From Halobaculum sp. CBA1158 (GTDB lineage: Archaea; Halobacteriota; Halobacteria; Halobacteriales; Haloferacaceae), in the NCBI RefSeq assembly GCF_021431925.1, contig NZ_CP090371.1, positions 248,001 through 312,000 of the forward strand: a DNA stretch of 64,000 nt, given 5' to 3'. The notes below the pieces were generated by a model. The model was not told the DNA's origin, searched no databases, and saw only the letters and a list, made by a program, of their open reading frames with translations. Position numbers and translations under genes: made by a program. Each line of letters begins with the position of its first letter. Within the stretch, counting starts at the first letter, position 1. Shown in pieces: positions 18,263 to 63,795 of this stretch.

Positions 18263-18604
18263 TCAGCCGTCGGTCATCGTCCGCCACACGTCGTCGAGTT
18301 TGTTCTTGACCTCCGAGCGCTCCTCCAGTTCCACGGTCAGGCCGTCGCGGAACGTCACGTTCACTCCGTCGACGCACCGACGGTACACCTTGATTCGACG
18401 GTGTTCCTCCGACAGCGGTCGGTCGTGTAGCTCCAGGAGCTCGGTGTCCTCGAGCTCGTTGATCCGACGATAGCAGGTGGCGATCGGCACGTCGAGCTGG
18501 TTCGACAGCTCCTGTGCCGACTTCGGCTCGCCCGCCGCGTCGAGGATCTCGGGGTTGTACTTGTTCCCCAGCACCTCGATGACTTCCTCGTCGTCCGCAG
18601 CCAT
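18263..18604 (-). CDS. Winged-helix transcriptional regulator (ArsR-like)
   Basis: A 113-residue protein with a winged helix-turn-helix at about residues 8-75: LGNKYNPEILDAAG, then the HTH AQELSNQLDVPIATCYRRINEL, then a wing EEHRRIKVYRR. The C-terminal part (VEERSEVKNKLDDVW region) is helical and could dimerise. It is encoded between cirA and the archaellin genes and transcribed towards cirA, from a box CTTATC (minus strand, 18634-18629) 30 bases before its ATG. This position makes it the best candidate in the window for the protein that binds the palindromes at the motility promoters; that is inference. Confidence 0.82.
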   Translation of the reverse strand: MAADDEEVIEVLGNKYNPEILDAAGEPKSAQELSNQLDVPIATCYRRINELEDTELLELHDRPLSEEHRRIKVYRRCVDGVNVTFRDGLTVELEERSEVKNKLDDVWRTMTDG

Positions 18605-18717: not shown

Positions 18718-18751
18718 TATCGAATGTGAATTTTGGTGCCGTGGCTTTAAT
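18718..18751 (+). promoter_or_regulatory. Archaellin promoter: operator TATC-N6-GAAT, N14, box TTTAAT
   Basis: Left half TATC 18718-18721, right half GAAT 18728-18731, then 14 bases, then the TATA box TTTAATAT from 18746. This is the architecture shared by the motility promoters. Transcription should begin near 18772-18776, leaving a leader of about 46-50 bases before the archaellin ATG, unlike the other sites, which are leaderless. Confidence 0.7.
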
Positions 18752-18821
18752 ATGCAATTCGGTGTCGAACTGCCTACAACTCGTCCTCTACCGCGGGGGC
18801 GGGACCGAGAGAACCACAGCA

Positions 18822-21121: not shown

Positions 21122-21155
21122 TTTCACGCCTGATACCTACGGGGATGCGTTTATC
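21122..21155 (+). promoter_or_regulatory. cheY operon promoter: operator TTTC-N6-GATA, N14, box TTTATC
   Basis: Left half TTTC 21122-21125, right half GATA 21132-21135, then 14 bases, then TTTATC at 21150-21155. The cheY ATG is 32 bases after the first base of the box, so the mRNA should be leaderless. Confidence 0.7.
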
Positions 21156-21181: not shown

Positions 21182-21544
21182 ATGCCGACCAGCGTTCTGA
21201 TCGCGGACGACTCGGAGTTCATGCGGAACCTCCTGCGGGAGATCCTCGAGGGGGAGTTCGAGATCGTCGGCGAGGCCGAGAACGGCGTCGAGGCGGTCGA
21301 CCTCTACGGCGAGCACTCGCCCGACATCGTGATGATGGACATCGTCATGCCGATCCGCAACGGGATCGAGGCGACCACCGAGATCACGGAGGAACACCCC
21401 GACGCGAACGTCATCATGTGCACGAGCGTCGGGCAGGAGGAGAAGATGAAGGCCGCGATCAAGGCGGGTGCGGAGGGGTACATCACGAAACCGTTCCAGA
21501 AGCCGAACGTGCTCGAAGCCATCAACGACGCCGTCCCCGCGTAG
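21182..21544 (+). CDS. cheY: Chemotaxis response regulator CheY
   Basis: A 120-residue single-domain response regulator that carries the signal from CheA to the archaellum motor. The acidic pair D9/D10, phospho-acceptor D53 (MMDIVMP), T81 and K103 are all present. In haloarchaea CheY-P acts through CheF rather than on a bacterial switch. It opens the cheY-cheC-cheD operon; its stop is two bases before the cheC ATG. Confidence 0.96.
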   Translation: MPTSVLIADDSEFMRNLLREILEGEFEIVGEAENGVEAVDLYGEHSPDIVMMDIVMPIRNGIEATTEITEEHPDANVIMCTSVGQEEKMKAAIKAGAEGYITKPFQKPNVLEAINDAVPA

Positions 21545-23411: not shown

Positions 23412-23445
23412 TATCGGGGGCGATAATCCGCGGGATGGGTTTAAG
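23412..23445 (+). promoter_or_regulatory. arlCE promoter: operator TATC-N6-GATA, N14, box TTTAAG
   Basis: With one base on each side the palindrome is perfect: TTATC-GGGGGC-GATAA. The box TTTAAG is at 23440-23445 and the arlCE ATG 31 bases after its first base. From 23411 to the ATG the sequence aligns without gaps with 26721 to the mini-ORF ATG before arlI. Confidence 0.75.
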
Positions 23446-23470: not shown

Positions 23471-24967
23471 ATGGGTCTCCTCACCGCACTATCGGGAGTC
23501 GGGGTCGCTGGGGTGCCGGGAGCCGAGGCGGGGCTGCTGGTCTCGCTGGGGCTTCTGGGTGCCAGCCTCCTCGATCGCTTCCGCGACGGCGACGACGGAC
23601 CCGGGGACGTCGAGGCCGACGACGACGACGATGACCTGTTGGGCGGCGACGACGGCGCGTTCGGCGGCGACGACGGCGGCGACGACGACCTCGGCGACCT
23701 CGGTGGTATGGACGACTGGGACGACGACGGCGACGACCCCTTCGGCGGCGACGACGGTGGCGACGACGGCGTCGCCGAGTTGGAGAAGCGCGTCGACGAC
23801 CTGGAAAACGAGGTCGCGAGCCTCTCCTCGACGGTCAACACCGTCCGTTCGGAGAACGAGGAGATCTCCGGGAAGGTCGAGGACATGGGCGAGGACGTCC
23901 GGAGCCTGCTCGACATCTACGAGATGGTCACGCGCGGGATCAATCCCTTCGTCGACGACGTGCAGGGCGGGGGCGATCTCGGCGGTGCCGGCGAGGGCGG
24001 CTTCGGTCTGTTCGACGACGCCGGCGAGGAGGAGGAGACGGACGACGAACTCGACGAGGACCTCGCCAGCGCCGACGCCGAGGGGTTCTTCGACGACGAC
24101 CTCGCCGGCGACGACGAGGACGAGTTCGGGGACGACCTCGGTGACGGGGACGACCTCGACGGCATGGACGACATGGACGGCATGGACGACATGGACGGGG
24201 GGATGGACGACGGCTTCGAGGACGGAGCTGAGTTCGACGACGACCTCGACGGCGACTTCGAGGACGAGGAGACCGACGACACCGATTCAGAACCCATGGG
24301 GACCGACAACGGCAGCGGCAAGAGCTTCAGTGAACTGAAAGACGAGTACGAGTCCGGCGACGCCGACTGGGACGAGGGCGAGGAGCCGGCCGGCGAGGCG
24401 GACGCCGGCGGCGACGCGCTCGACGCCGAGCCGGAGTCGAACGGCCACGACGCCGGCGGCGACCTCGGTCTCGACGACGGGTCGGATCCGGAGCCCGAAC
24501 CGGAGCCGGAGTCGACGGCCGGGCCGACCGATCCGAGCCGACGCGGCGAGGGGGTCGACGAGAACGGCGGCTTCGAGTTCGTCGAGGAGGACGACCTCTC
24601 CGACGAGCCGGACAAGCCGTACCTCACCAGCCTGCCGGGCGACTACGTGGGCGACCTGATGGTGATGGAGTGGCTGGAGTTCCTCGTCGAGGAGTCGACC
24701 ACGACCGACGCCGTACGGGCGGTCAACTACTACGAGCGCGTCGAGTGGATCGACGGGGAGGTCGCAGACCAACTCAAGGGCTTCCTCTCCGGGTTCGGCG
24801 ACATCGACCGCAACCTGATGGACCGGCCCGGCACGGACCAGCTCGACCTCGATCACCACACTCGGAGCCTCAAGTACATCATGCAACTGACCGACGCCAC
24901 CGCGGAGTCGGTGGTCATCGACCGCTGGCCGCAGCTCTCCGGAGGCATGCATGGGCCTCAGCGTTAG
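23471..24967 (+). CDS. arlCE: ArlCE, archaellum motor-associated protein (FlaC/D-E fusion)
   Basis: A 498-residue fusion that in euryarchaea forms the cytosolic ring or switch that receives CheF/CheY input. A hydrophobic N-terminus (about 1-35) is followed by an Asp/Gly-rich stretch, a coiled-coil FlaC-type segment (ELEKRVDDLENEVASL, about 105-150, ending GINPFVDD), a long acidic linker with DGMDDMDGMDDMDGG repeats, and the C-terminal FlaD/E domain (PYLTSLPGDYVGDLMVMEWL). The ATG at 23471 fits the promoter; an upstream in-frame start is rejected. The N-terminal hydrophobic helix could attach the ring to the membrane. Its end overlaps arlF by 17 bases. Confidence 0.92.
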   Translation: MGLLTALSGVGVAGVPGAEAGLLVSLGLLGASLLDRFRDGDDGPGDVEADDDDDDLLGGDDGAFGGDDGGDDDLGDLGGMDDWDDDGDDPFGGDDGGDDGVAELEKRVDDLENEVASLSSTVNTVRSENEEISGKVEDMGEDVRSLLDIYEMVTRGINPFVDDVQGGGDLGGAGEGGFGLFDDAGEEEETDDELDEDLASADAEGFFDDDLAGDDEDEFGDDLGDGDDLDGMDDMDGMDDMDGGMDDGFEDGAEFDDDLDGDFEDEETDDTDSEPMGTDNGSGKSFSELKDEYESGDADWDEGEEPAGEADAGGDALDAEPESNGHDAGGDLGLDDGSDPEPEPEPESTAGPTDPSRRGEGVDENGGFEFVEEDDLSDEPDKPYLTSLPGDYVGDLMVMEWLEFLVEESTTTDAVRAVNYYERVEWIDGEVADQLKGFLSGFGDIDRNLMDRPGTDQLDLDHHTRSLKYIMQLTDATAESVVIDRWPQLSGGMHGPQR

Positions 24968-26721: not shown

Positions 26722-26755
26722 TATCCGAGCTGATAGCTCGCGGGGAGGGTTTAAG
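26722..26755 (+). promoter_or_regulatory. arlI promoter: operator TATC-N6-GATA, N14, box TTTAAG
   Basis: TATC 26722-26725, GATA 26732-26735, 14 bases, TTTAAG 26750-26755. An ATG lies 31 bases after the box, at 26781, the same spacing as in arlCE. That ATG opens the mini-ORF and not arlI itself. Confidence 0.72.
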
Positions 26756-26780
26756 CCTCGTTCGCGGGTGTGTCGTCGTA

Positions 26781-26879
26781 ATGAGTGCCACCCCTGGAGG
26801 GAGTCGGGGGCCCGGGGCCGCTGCACGCGCGGTGACGGACGCGCGCCGGGTGATGCCGGCGCGGAGGTGTGATCCATGA
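26781..26879 (+). CDS. Mini-ORF upstream of and overlapping arlI
   Basis: A 32-codon frame (begins MSATPGGSRG, ends ARRCDP) whose ATG is exactly where a leaderless transcript from the arlI promoter should begin. Its TGA overlaps the arlI ATG (ATGA). A GGAGGT ribosome binding site for arlI lies inside it at 26863-26868. It is Arg/Pro/Ala-rich and not acidic, unlike normal proteins of this organism. It may be a leader frame that couples translation to arlI, or only a transcribed leader. Confidence 0.45.
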   Translation: MSATPGGSRGPGAAARAVTDARRVMPARRCDP

Positions 26880-28552: not shown

Positions 28553-30301
28553 ATGAGCACGAACAGCGCGTCCGCGTCCGACTTCTTCCCCGATTCGGCG
28601 GCCGACCTCGCCGCCGACCTGCTGGAGTCGTACGACGCGCTCGACATGTCCAAGCGGAAGTACGTCGGCTACATCCTCGCGCCCTCGGCGGCGTTCCTCC
28701 TGCTCACGATCGCGGGGGCGTTCCTGCTCCCGCTGCCGCTGACGGTCCGGCTGCCGATCCCGGCGCTCGGCCTGCTGGTGTTCGCCTCGGCCGTCTTCTA
28801 CCCGAAGCTGTACCTCAACGGCCGCCAGGTGGCCATCGAGAACCAGCTCCACCTCGTGATGACGCACATGACCGTGCTGTCGACGACGAACATCGACCGG
28901 ATGGAGGTGTTCCGAACGCTCGCTCGCGAGGAGGAGTACGGCGCGGCCGCCGACGAACTCGCGCGCGTCGTCCACCTCGTCGACACCTGGAACCAGTCGC
29001 TCGACGACGCGCTGCGCCGCCGTGCCAAGGAGGTGCCCTCGGACGCCTTCTCTGACTTCTTCGACCGCCTGGGCTACACGATCGGCGCGGGCCAGTCGCT
29101 CGACGAGTTCCTCCTCTCGGAGCAGGACGCGGTCATCCAGAACTACATCACCGTGTACGAGGGCGCGCTGGCGAACCTGGAGGTCATGAAGGACCTCTAC
29201 ATGTCGATGATCCTCTCGATGACGTTCGCGCTGGTGTTCGCCATCGTCCTCCCGATCCTCACCGGGGACAACCCCACGCGGACCGTCTCGGCGGTCATCG
29301 TCCTGTTCATGCTGGTCCAGTTGGGCTTCTACGTCGTCATCCGAGCGATGTCGCCCCACGACCCGGTGTGGTTCCACTCCGAACAGGGCGCGCCCTCGGA
29401 CTTCCGGCTGTGGGCCAGTTTCGCCGTCGGCGTCGCCGGCACCGCCGCGCTCGTCGTCTTCGTCGGGGCGGGGCTGTTCGGGTACGGCCCCGGGCTTCGG
29501 GGACTGTTGTTCTTCCTCGAGAACATCCCGCTCGCGCTGTACATCTGCGTCCCGATCACGCCGATGGCGATCACCGGCGTCATGCTCCGGCTGGAGGAGC
29601 GCAACATCGAGGAGCGCGACTCGGAGTTCCCGTCGTTCATCCGCGCGCTCGGGGCGGCCGAGTCGGCCAAGCAGTCCACCACCGGCGACGTGCTCGCGAC
29701 GCTCCATCAGAAGGACTTCGGTGCGCTCACGCCGGCGATCATCCGGCTGTACCGGCGGCTCAACATGCGGATCAGCTCGGAGGAGTCGTGGTACTCCTTC
29801 GCGACCGACACGCGCTCGTACCTCATCCAGAAGTTCTCAGACATGTACCTCGAGGGTCGGTCGATGGGCGGTCGGCCGAAGCTGCTGGGGGAGCTCATCT
29901 CCCAGAACATGAACACCGTCATGCAGCTTCGCGAGCAGCGCCGGCAGGCGACGATGACGATGATCGGCCTGCTGTACGGGATCACCTCCGCGTCGGCGTT
30001 CGCGTTCTTCATCGGCCTCCAGGTCGTGAACATCCTCGCAGACCTGTCCCAGCAGTTCGACGTGACAAACGCCGGCGGCGTCGGGCAGATCATCTACGCC
30101 GGCGTGTACGACATCGCGCTCATCGAGTTCCTGCTCCTGTTAGTCATCCTGTTCAACGCCGTCCTCTCGTCGGTGATGATCCGCACCATCGACGGCGGCA
30201 ACAAGGCCAACGCCTACCTCCACTTCGTGCTCATGACGTGGCTCGGCTCCGGCGTGGCCATCTTCACGAAGTACCTCGTCAGCACCATCCTCACGATCTG
30301 A
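28553..30301 (+). CDS. arlJ: ArlJ, archaellum platform membrane protein
   Basis: A 582-residue polytopic protein with two T2SF-type (GspF/PilC-like) cytoplasmic domains. Membrane pairs are visible at about residues 38-75, 215-265, 290-345 and near the C-terminus. It anchors ArlI and nucleates the filament. Charged cytoplasmic segments such as RRAKEVPSDAFSDFFDRLG and MRISSEESWYSFA mark the T2SF folds. It is the last gene of the archaellum locus; the sequence after it contains an orphan copy of the motility promoter and then unrelated genes. Confidence 0.95.
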   Translation: MSTNSASASDFFPDSAADLAADLLESYDALDMSKRKYVGYILAPSAAFLLLTIAGAFLLPLPLTVRLPIPALGLLVFASAVFYPKLYLNGRQVAIENQLHLVMTHMTVLSTTNIDRMEVFRTLAREEEYGAAADELARVVHLVDTWNQSLDDALRRRAKEVPSDAFSDFFDRLGYTIGAGQSLDEFLLSEQDAVIQNYITVYEGALANLEVMKDLYMSMILSMTFALVFAIVLPILTGDNPTRTVSAVIVLFMLVQLGFYVVIRAMSPHDPVWFHSEQGAPSDFRLWASFAVGVAGTAALVVFVGAGLFGYGPGLRGLLFFLENIPLALYICVPITPMAITGVMLRLEERNIEERDSEFPSFIRALGAAESAKQSTTGDVLATLHQKDFGALTPAIIRLYRRLNMRISSEESWYSFATDTRSYLIQKFSDMYLEGRSMGGRPKLLGELISQNMNTVMQLREQRRQATMTMIGLLYGITSASAFAFFIGLQVVNILADLSQQFDVTNAGGVGQIIYAGVYDIALIEFLLLLVILFNAVLSSVMIRTIDGGNKANAYLHFVLMTWLGSGVAIFTKYLVSTILTI

Positions 30302-30669
30302 GGCCGTCGCGATCGCGGTTGCCGTCGTCGTTGTCGATGCGGGTGCCGTCGCTGCCGGTGCGGTTCTCGTCGTCGTTGTCGCCGACCGCCTCGAGCGCTC
30401 CCGTCGCTCTCGGAGCTGATATCCGGCGGCGAACGATTTTAGGTCGGCGTTCGAACGATCGGACAGCGGCGGCCGGTGGGACGATGGGAGTCGGCCGCCG
30501 TCGGGTCACGGCGAAGCCATGGGTAGGGACCTGGCGTTCGACCGCCGACTCCGACATCGGTTTTCACGCACCGTCGCCGGCGAGTCCCGGCCCCGTTCGC
30601 GGTCGCTCGCGTCGCCGGTGTTCACGTGCGTCGAAAAATCGGAACCGCGATCGGCGGTCGACCGTGCGG
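30302..30669. other. 368-base gap after arlJ with an orphan motility promoter
   Basis: No gene I can support. It contains a full operator-plus-box (30408-30441, plus strand) and a perfect 10-base palindrome CGTTCGAACG at 30448-30457. ATG codons at 30484 and 30519 open frames that run into the antisense strand of cstA without family resemblance. Confidence 0.55.
30408..30441 (+). promoter_or_regulatory. Orphan motility promoter: operator TCTC-N6-GATA, N14, box ATTTTA
   Basis: TCTC 30408-30411, GATA 30418-30421, 14 bases, ATTTTA 30436-30441. Spacing is the same as at the gene-linked copies. No start codon occurs 29-32 bases after the box; the next ATG is at 30484 (48 bases). It may drive a small RNA or be the remnant of a lost neighbour. 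Confidence 0.5.
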
Positions 30670-32547
30670 TTAGTCGTCGCCGCGGCCGCCGTCGGTGGCC
30701 ACGGCACCGCCCTCGCCGCCCGCGCCGCTGCGGGCGTTCTGGATGTTGTCGTACCCTATCTTCACCAGCGACAGCCCCAGGTACAGCAGGACAAACGCGA
30801 TCACGATCTGGACGACCGCCGACAGCATCGCGAAGACGCCCGCGTCGGCCATCCACTCGCTGTTGAGGAACTTCGCGTAGATGTTGTCGTGCAGCGCGAG
30901 CCACAGCAGGGCCAGCGAGGTGATCGTCACCATGATCGCCATCGGGCCGCCCGTGGAGAGGAGCTGCTTCGAGTCGCTCCAGTTGGCCAGCCACACCGTC
31001 GCAGTGAGCAGCGCCAGCGCCGCGAGCAGCTGGTTCGCGCTGCCGAACAACTGCCACAGCGTCAGCCACGAACCGCTCGTGATGAGGACGTACGCCGGCA
31101 GCGCCTGCACGGCCGCGTTGCCGTAGCGGTCGGCCGCGACCTCCTCGGCCGTGGTCTCGGGGGTGCCGACGATCTCCTCCATCATGTACCGCCCCAGCCG
31201 GACGGCGGTGTCCGTCGAGGTGAGCAGGAAGCTCACCAGCACCAGCGCCATGAACGGAGCGCCGAGGCTGGTCGGAATGCCGAAGCTCGTCAGGATCACG
31301 CCCCCGCCGGTCGCGAACGTCGGCAGCGCGAGCCCGATGCCGCCGCCGACCTCCGGCGCGACGAGCGCCACGGTGATCAGCGCGACCGTCGCGAGCAGCC
31401 CCTCGCCGAGCATCCCGCCGTAGCCGATGGCGCGGGCGTCGGTCTCCTTGTTCAGCTGCTTCGAGGTCGTCCCCGAGGACACCAGCGAGTGGAACCCGGA
31501 AATGGTCCCGCACGCGATGGTGATGAACAGCAGCGGGAACAGCGGCGCGCCGGAGCGGCCGATGAACCCGTAGAACGGTTCGAGGTTCGTCACCAGCGGC
31601 TGGCTCGGCGAGATCGCCGCGATGCCGAGCGCGCCGCCGAGCGTGCCGACGATGATCGCCAGCAACGCCCCGCCGACCCCCGTGTACAGGAGGAACGACG
31701 AGAGGTAGTCACGCGGCTGCAACAGCACCCAGACCGGAAGGGCGCTCGCGATCGCTCCGTACACGAGGATGAACGGCACCCACGCCGCGGTGTTGGGTGT
31801 GAGGGTCGCGCTCGCGTCGACGACGGCCCCCGGGAGCCACCCACCGTTGCCCAACATCGACAGCAGGACGATGGTCCCCTGGGGGTAGGTACCGGCCTCG
31901 ACTGCCGGGAACAGCGCCACGGGGTACTGAATGCCGACCCAGACCCCGGCGAACATCGCGATGACGAACGCGATCGTTCCCGGGATGAACGGGAGGTCCA
32001 ACTGGTACAGGTACACCCCGAGCAACACGGCCAGCCCGATGTAGATCAGGCTCGCCGTCGCCGCCTGCGGGAAGGCGTTGAACACGATCGCGACGACGAG
32101 CGCGAACACGGCCACGACGAGGATGATCGTCAGGAACGCGAACCACAGCAGCATGTTCTTGCCGCGTTCGCCGACGTACTCGCCGATGATGTACCCGACC
32201 GACTTCCCCTCGTGCCGGAGGCTCGCCGACAGCGAGACGAAGTCGTGAACCGCTCCCATCAGGGGGTTCCCGATCGCGATCCACAAGATCGCGGGTACCC
32301 AGCCCCACACGACGCCGGCCGTGATCGGACCGACGATGGGCGCGCCGCCCGCGATACTCGAATAGTGATGCCCTAGGAGCACCGGCTTCTTGGCCGGAAC
32401 GTACTCCTGTCCGTCTTCGTATTTGTGTGCCGGCGTCTCACGGTCGTCGTCCAGTTCGACGAACTGGGACAGATACCGGGAGTACCCGAGGTACCCCGCG
32501 CTGAACAGCACGAGCACCGCGAGCACCAGCCACATCGCAGCCACCAT
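30670..32547 (-). CDS. cstA: CstA-family carbon starvation / pyruvate-peptide transporter
   Basis: A 625-residue membrane protein with about 16-18 helices. CstA signatures are clear: HHYSSIAGGAPIVGP near the N-terminus, and SGFHSLVSSGTTSKQLNKETDA in the middle. Bacterial CstA proteins take up peptides or pyruvate during carbon limitation; the substrate here is unknown. A TATA box TTTTTATACC (minus strand, about 32594-32584) lies 35-45 bases before the ATG at 32547. It is convergent with arlJ and may mark the point where the motility region was split. Confidence 0.93.
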   Translation of the reverse strand: MVAAMWLVLAVLVLFSAGYLGYSRYLSQFVELDDDRETPAHKYEDGQEYVPAKKPVLLGHHYSSIAGGAPIVGPITAGVVWGWVPAILWIAIGNPLMGAVHDFVSLSASLRHEGKSVGYIIGEYVGERGKNMLLWFAFLTIILVVAVFALVVAIVFNAFPQAATASLIYIGLAVLLGVYLYQLDLPFIPGTIAFVIAMFAGVWVGIQYPVALFPAVEAGTYPQGTIVLLSMLGNGGWLPGAVVDASATLTPNTAAWVPFILVYGAIASALPVWVLLQPRDYLSSFLLYTGVGGALLAIIVGTLGGALGIAAISPSQPLVTNLEPFYGFIGRSGAPLFPLLFITIACGTISGFHSLVSSGTTSKQLNKETDARAIGYGGMLGEGLLATVALITVALVAPEVGGGIGLALPTFATGGGVILTSFGIPTSLGAPFMALVLVSFLLTSTDTAVRLGRYMMEEIVGTPETTAEEVAADRYGNAAVQALPAYVLITSGSWLTLWQLFGSANQLLAALALLTATVWLANWSDSKQLLSTGGPMAIMVTITSLALLWLALHDNIYAKFLNSEWMADAGVFAMLSAVVQIVIAFVLLYLGLSLVKIGYDNIQNARSGAGGEGGAVATDGGRGDD

Positions 32548-63741: not shown

Positions 63742-63795
63742 ATTGAAGGCTCCGTCCCGAATTTCAGGCGTGATACCTCGTGCGCTACCGTTAAG
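63742..63795. promoter_or_regulatory. Bidirectional cheB/cheW promoter sharing one operator
   Basis: One palindrome TTTC-N6-GATA (63762-63775). To the right, 14 bases then GTTAAG (63790-63795), 30 bases before the cheW ATG. To the left, 14 bases then TTCAAT on the minus strand (63747-63742), 30 bases before the cheB mini-ORF ATG. Spacings are the same on both sides, so one bound dimer could act on both promoters. Confidence 0.72.

Follow-up and report, generated by a model that had tools for sequence, protein, structure and literature searches.

The locus downstream of arlJ raises the question of what a motility-type promoter does in a gap with no recognisable gene. We analysed a window of 64,000 nucleotides from Halobaculum sp. 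CBA1158 (NZ_CP090371.1, positions 248,001 to 312,000); its genome is G000 of the eleven Halobaculum species compared here (G000 to G010), and H. saliterrae, H. gomorrense and H. litoreum are among the named species closest to it. The archaellum cluster within the window consists of a csmR-like gene, arlA, cheY, arlCE, arlH, arlI and arlJ. A preliminary description had placed a complete operator and box in the gap between arlJ and cstA, and had suggested that they drive a small RNA or were left behind when a chemotaxis gene was moved. The gap spans 368 bp from the arlJ stop (30301) to the convergent cstA stop (30670), and its borders are:

28553..30301, plus strand: arlJ, upstream neighbour of the candidate RNA gene (NF004704 ArlJ, 720 bits against a cut-off of 550)
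30670..32547, minus strand: cstA, convergent neighbour (PF02554 CstA, E 6e-131)

CsmR is the archaellum regulator of Haloferax volcanii, and its site, TATCA(N4)TGATA, adjoins BRE/TATA (PMC13286277). Two elements of this kind follow arlJ:

30408..30422, plus strand: CsmR-type operator TCTCG(GAGC)TGATA+T, TCTCGGAGCTGATAT, sharing 8/10 half-site bases with the published TATCA(N4)TGATA
30430..30441, plus strand: BRE-like CGAACG (30430-30435) and TATA-type box ATTTTA (30436-30441), 68% identity in nine species

The left half-site is degenerate (TCTCG versus TATCA), and in relatives the match to the CsmR consensus half-sites reaches 9/10. By a weight matrix trained on protein-coding motility promoters alone, with the focal sites left out, the post-arlJ site scored 18.5 bits, near the top of the nine window sites with scores of at least 9 (cheY, 22.5; cheW, 20.2; pre-arlI, 18.7 bits). 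In simulated sequence, 0.0 sites with this score plus a box are expected per 64 kb. The operator and box thus lie on the strand and at the place first described. CsmR-type sites in the window also precede arlA, cheY, arlCE, a small ORF before arlI, cheW, cheB and a methyl-accepting transducer gene; four of them are:

21122..21154, plus strand: CsmR-type promoter of cheY, with a leaderless ATG at 21182
23412..23444, plus strand: CsmR-type promoter of arlCE, with a leaderless ATG at 23471
26722..26754, plus strand: CsmR-type promoter of a 32-aa ORF overlapping the arlI start
63762..63794, plus strand: CsmR-type promoter of cheW

The operator-to-box distance at the post-arlJ site (19) equals that at cheY, arlCE and cheW. 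Start codons at the CsmR-type sites of the window usually lie 29-32 bp past the box (32 bp for cheY, 31 for arlCE, 31 for the small ORF before arlI). However, the post-arlJ site precedes a non-coding block, whereas the other window sites precede protein-coding genes, and no ATG, GTG or TTG was found 22-39 bp past its box, as had been remarked. Judged by sequence, the post-arlJ operator and box are a non-chance site of the same type as the promoters of motility genes.

The small ORF before arlI is a separate observation. In 10/10 Halobaculum clusters examined, arlI is preceded by a leaderless ORF of 28-32 aa (MSATPGGSRGPGAAARAVTDARRVMPARRCDP; 26722-26879 in the window) that has a CsmR-type promoter of its own. 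The stop codon of this ORF overlaps the start of arlI or directly adjoins it, resembling a leader peptide for translational coupling; the ORF has no Pfam match.

A candidate regulator is encoded at the other end of the cluster:

18263..18604, minus strand: csmR-like gene beside arlA, coding for a 113-aa winged-helix protein (PF12840 HTH_20, 35.2 bits against a cut-off of 27)

This gene was found in 10/10 clusters examined. It was likened to hvo_1209 (PMC13286277) by size and position rather than by direct alignment, and probably encodes CsmR. The arrangement resembles the CsmR promoters of Haloferax volcanii, where a TATCA(N4)TGATA-type operator stands directly 5' of BRE/TATA and csmR lies beside the archaellin genes (PMC13286277). 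Given the operator and the csmR-like gene, we infer that CsmR control is likely; transcription of an RNA from this site is equally likely.

The region 3' of arlJ was compared across ten further Halobaculum genomes and many genera besides. The same promoter was found in 8/10 Halobaculum relatives, that is, in 9/11 species including the window's own, so that the site is conserved. In these nine species a block, AGCGGCGG...GACCGCCGTCGGGTCGCGGCGAAGCCATGGGTAGGGACCTGG, begins abruptly 30-32 nt past the box:

30465..30534, plus strand: conserved core of the candidate sRNA gene, about 70 nt, about 85-90% identity in nine Halobaculum species, predicted +1 at A30465

The core is about 85% identical position by position, with 90% mean column identity when aligned. 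Mean pairwise identity is 78% for the operator and 68% for the BRE/box, and falls to 34% in the 22 nt preceding the predicted +1. Identity in the flanks is low (36% in the 30 bp upstream of the operator, about 31% at 20-60 nt past the core). Since operator, box, spacing and core are jointly kept between unconserved flanks, they point to a transcribed unit starting at the predicted +1. The small-RNA proposal therefore gains strong support from sequence conservation. The extent given for it (30408-30490) holds for the operator and box but ends too early, within a block that runs to 30534 and is followed by a T-run at 30561-30564.

The block occurs once per genome, and H. gomorrense and H. saliterrae are among its carriers. 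Rfam 15 returned chance-level matches only, with no family at gathering score, and viral contigs and plasmids lacked the RNA. A sequence model run against 170 genomes of the family and 391 of the class, two sets that partly overlap, rose above noise in Halobaculum only; matches outside the genus scored 17-25 bits and were judged, as a group, to be GC-rich chance. Around arlJ in other genera, 4/54 CsmR-type sites had no start codon at the leaderless position, and in two of these four (L096 and L097), read from sequence, an ATG lies slightly beyond that position. The sole start-less site directly after arlJ belongs to L044, an uncultured haloarchaeal MAG (2181-2330), where the CsmR-type site is weaker. 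Likeness to the Halobaculum RNA is confined there to the 5' end (GGTAGCGGCGG), which stands at a similar distance from the CsmR-type site as in Halobaculum. The L044 element is perhaps a diverged counterpart.

Alternatively, the block may belong to the 3' end of the arlJ transcript, as a terminator or an element for processing or stability, or may be conserved as DNA, with no separate RNA gene. It always lies behind arlJ on the same strand, and its structure could serve an operon 3' end. However, a conserved operator and BRE/TATA of its own stand at a constant distance, the stretch from arlJ to the operator is unconserved (35.6% identity), and the element is missing from Halobonum and other genera that have arlJ. 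We regard this reading as improbable, though it fares best among the alternatives.

Less probable still is that the promoter serves a short mRNA, leaderless or nearly so, for a peptide of 11-28 aa that ends in ...AVGSRRSHG before a UAG stop. A GTG or ATG opens the frame ...AVGS(R/Q)RSHG plus stop in G000, G007, G004 and G008, and a TTG does so in G009. However, G003 and G005 lack a start codon for it, G002 has lost its stop, and in G001 it is frameshifted. One-nucleotide indels occur within the block in G000 and G001. What is conserved is the nucleotide sequence as such, with no concentration in the first two codon positions, and differences, read from the alignment, do not cluster at third positions. 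Across the nine species we found no conserved reading frame downstream of the promoter, in line with the initial impression that nothing there resembles a protein.

The presumed transcript was also examined for structure and a 3' end, which gave the following features:

30466..30501, plus strand: 5' stem-loop SL1 in the RNAalifold consensus, with two compensatory pairs (U-A/C-G, G-C/A-U) and also some broken cells
30500..30555, plus strand: second structured part in single-sequence folds, a closing stem GUCGGGUC/GACUCCGAC around an apical hairpin
30561..30564, plus strand: TTTT, probable terminator; a T4-5 run stands at RNA position 93-96 in 4/9 species

With a stop at the T-run, the predicted RNA would be about 97-100 nt long. 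Single-sequence folds expose a GUAGGGA loop (30523-30529) in the apical hairpin in most species, and those that include the 3' part form the closing stem as GUCGGGUC/GACNCCGAC. Arm-to-tail pairing of this stem gave a combined P-value of 0.02 against shuffles and 0.005 against background, and the signal is clearest in G001, whose arm is changed; in these models the structural support for the closing stem is suggestive only. Folding energies of single sequences were no better than those of shuffles, 29/500 shuffles matched the observed covariation, and 15/200 the RNAalifold energy. Because the whole-alignment structure tests are marginal, we treat the fold as a working model.

The distribution of the RNA gene links it to one of its neighbours. 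The gene is missing in 2/11 species, G006 and G010, both without an intact cluster arlA. In G010 the arl operon has been deleted, and an arlA N-terminus fused to an arlJ C-terminus remains next to cirA (L023). G006, which nests within Halobaculum beside G005 (96/96 support), retains the arl cluster with an intact arlJ (L226), and the archaellin genes of the cluster (arlA) are pseudogenes; several full-length archaellins are kept elsewhere in its genome. Cluster archaellins are kept in 9/9 species carrying the RNA. This co-loss pattern would arise by chance 1 time in 55, eleven species being few. In G001 the cstA gene has diverged (69%) and the RNA element still accompanies arlJ. On this sequence pattern, the candidate RNA is tied to the archaellum cluster, not to cstA.

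Two further features of these genomes stand beside this pattern. In Halobaculum genomes of the motile type, several full-length archaellin genes are dispersed over the chromosome, many with promoter-like upstream regions (L199, L227-L233), a possible sign of archaellin switching. The cstA next to arlJ is diverged in G001, G006 and G010 (62-69% identity) versus about 82-88% in other species, which possibly reflects gene replacement.

An antisense RNA regulating the convergent cstA is a very improbable reading. Convergent cstA lies 3' of the site in every Halobaculum and Halobonum cluster checked. However, the conserved core ends about 135 bp short of the cstA stop with unconserved DNA beyond, and the element persists in G001 despite its diverged cstA. 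Least credible of all is a promoter left as a relic by a gene that formerly stood behind arlJ and has since moved: a protein-coding gene is indeed missing downstream and chemotaxis genes do lie elsewhere in the genome, but the gene order after arlJ shows no gene before cstA in any Halobaculum or Halobonum relative examined, and we reject the idea because a relic would not retain operator, box, spacing and a non-coding transcribed sequence genus-wide between flanks of 30-36% identity.

We conclude that the element after arlJ is, with good confidence, a non-coding sRNA gene of about 97 nt belonging to the haloarchaeal archaellum/chemotaxis (CsmR) regulon. The sequence itself shows how the promoter is built, that promoter and block are conserved, that the block does not code for protein, and that the element is missing where the cluster arlA is not intact. 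In the mechanism that we propose, CsmR, probably the product of 18263-18604, would bind the operator at 30408-30422 and control recruitment of the basal machinery, as at cheY, arlCE and cheW. Transcription from about A30465 to the T-run near 30561-30564 would yield an RNA of about 97 nt. The RNA would form a stem-loop at its 5' end and another hairpin in which the nearly invariant, purine-rich GUAGGGA loop is exposed. It would be produced whenever the archaellum is made and would act in trans, after transcription, tuning a motility-related mRNA most likely through pairing of the GUAGGGA loop or through protein binding. The trans-acting mechanism is a tentative part of this scheme, falling somewhat short of probable.

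The co-loss pattern points to the cluster archaellin mRNA as a target, and this mRNA has a structured leader, unlike cheY and arlCE. The arlA leader of about 45-50 nt (18746-18821 in the window) contains a conserved hairpin-like stretch and a block, GGGACCGAGAGAACC, before the ATG; cheY and arlCE are leaderless. It is a possible site of post-transcriptional control. Searches of 11 genomes for a conserved long antisense match (17-mer, at most 2 mismatches) returned none besides the gene itself and one 2-mismatch hit in G009. Duplex energies against arl/che mRNA starts of the arl cluster showed no excess pairing (z mostly about 0 or positive), and the motif common to the RNA and the arlA leader (both contain GGGACC) was not above background (P-value 0.38). 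We consider archaellin mRNA an unlikely candidate target. The RNA may act by shorter pairing or by binding a protein.

Among known systems, the regulatory RNA hvo_1211s of the Haloferax volcanii archaellum locus is a RosR-linked RNA of about 420 nt, located between arlA2 and cirA and running antisense to the latter (PMC13286277). Like it, the Halobaculum candidate is an unannotated non-coding RNA in an arl locus; the effect on motility is a feature of hvo_1211s. Unlike it, the Halobaculum RNA, of about 97 nt, is predicted to come from a CsmR-type promoter of its own behind arlJ, and its core faces no gene on the other strand. Being 420 nt long and antisense to cirA, hvo_1211s is not the RNA described here. 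The intergenic sRNAs of Haloferax volcanii (PMC5892119) are similar as haloarchaeal sRNAs with their own BRE/TATA, but come from RNA-seq in another genus. The Sigma28-dependent flagellar sRNAs of E. coli (UhpU, MotR, FliX and FlgO; PMC10578931) offer a comparison in the way of working, as sRNAs expressed with a motility regulon; however, they are bacterial, derived from UTRs, have known targets and show no homology to the Halobaculum RNA. In the open-licence literature we found no sRNA described with this sequence or as a member of the archaellum regulon. The candidate RNA is thus, on its sequence, a new, undescribed RNA family.

The fullest version of this proposal would be a dedicated archaellum-regulon sRNA with a CsmR-type operator, lost together with the cluster archaellin genes and acting on archaellin or motility mRNAs through GUAGGGA, an archaeal equivalent of the sRNAs in bacterial flagellar regulons. 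We advance it tentatively, as an idea somewhat more likely to need revision than to stand whole. Post-transcriptional control is almost unexplored in archaeal motility, and hvo_1211s is the one archaellum-tied regulatory RNA that we found in the literature. Looking for CsmR-type operators is a way to uncover members of the regulon that do not code for protein. The candidate RNA is short, conserved and present once per genome, and its predicted regulator and co-loss pattern make it a case that can be tested directly.
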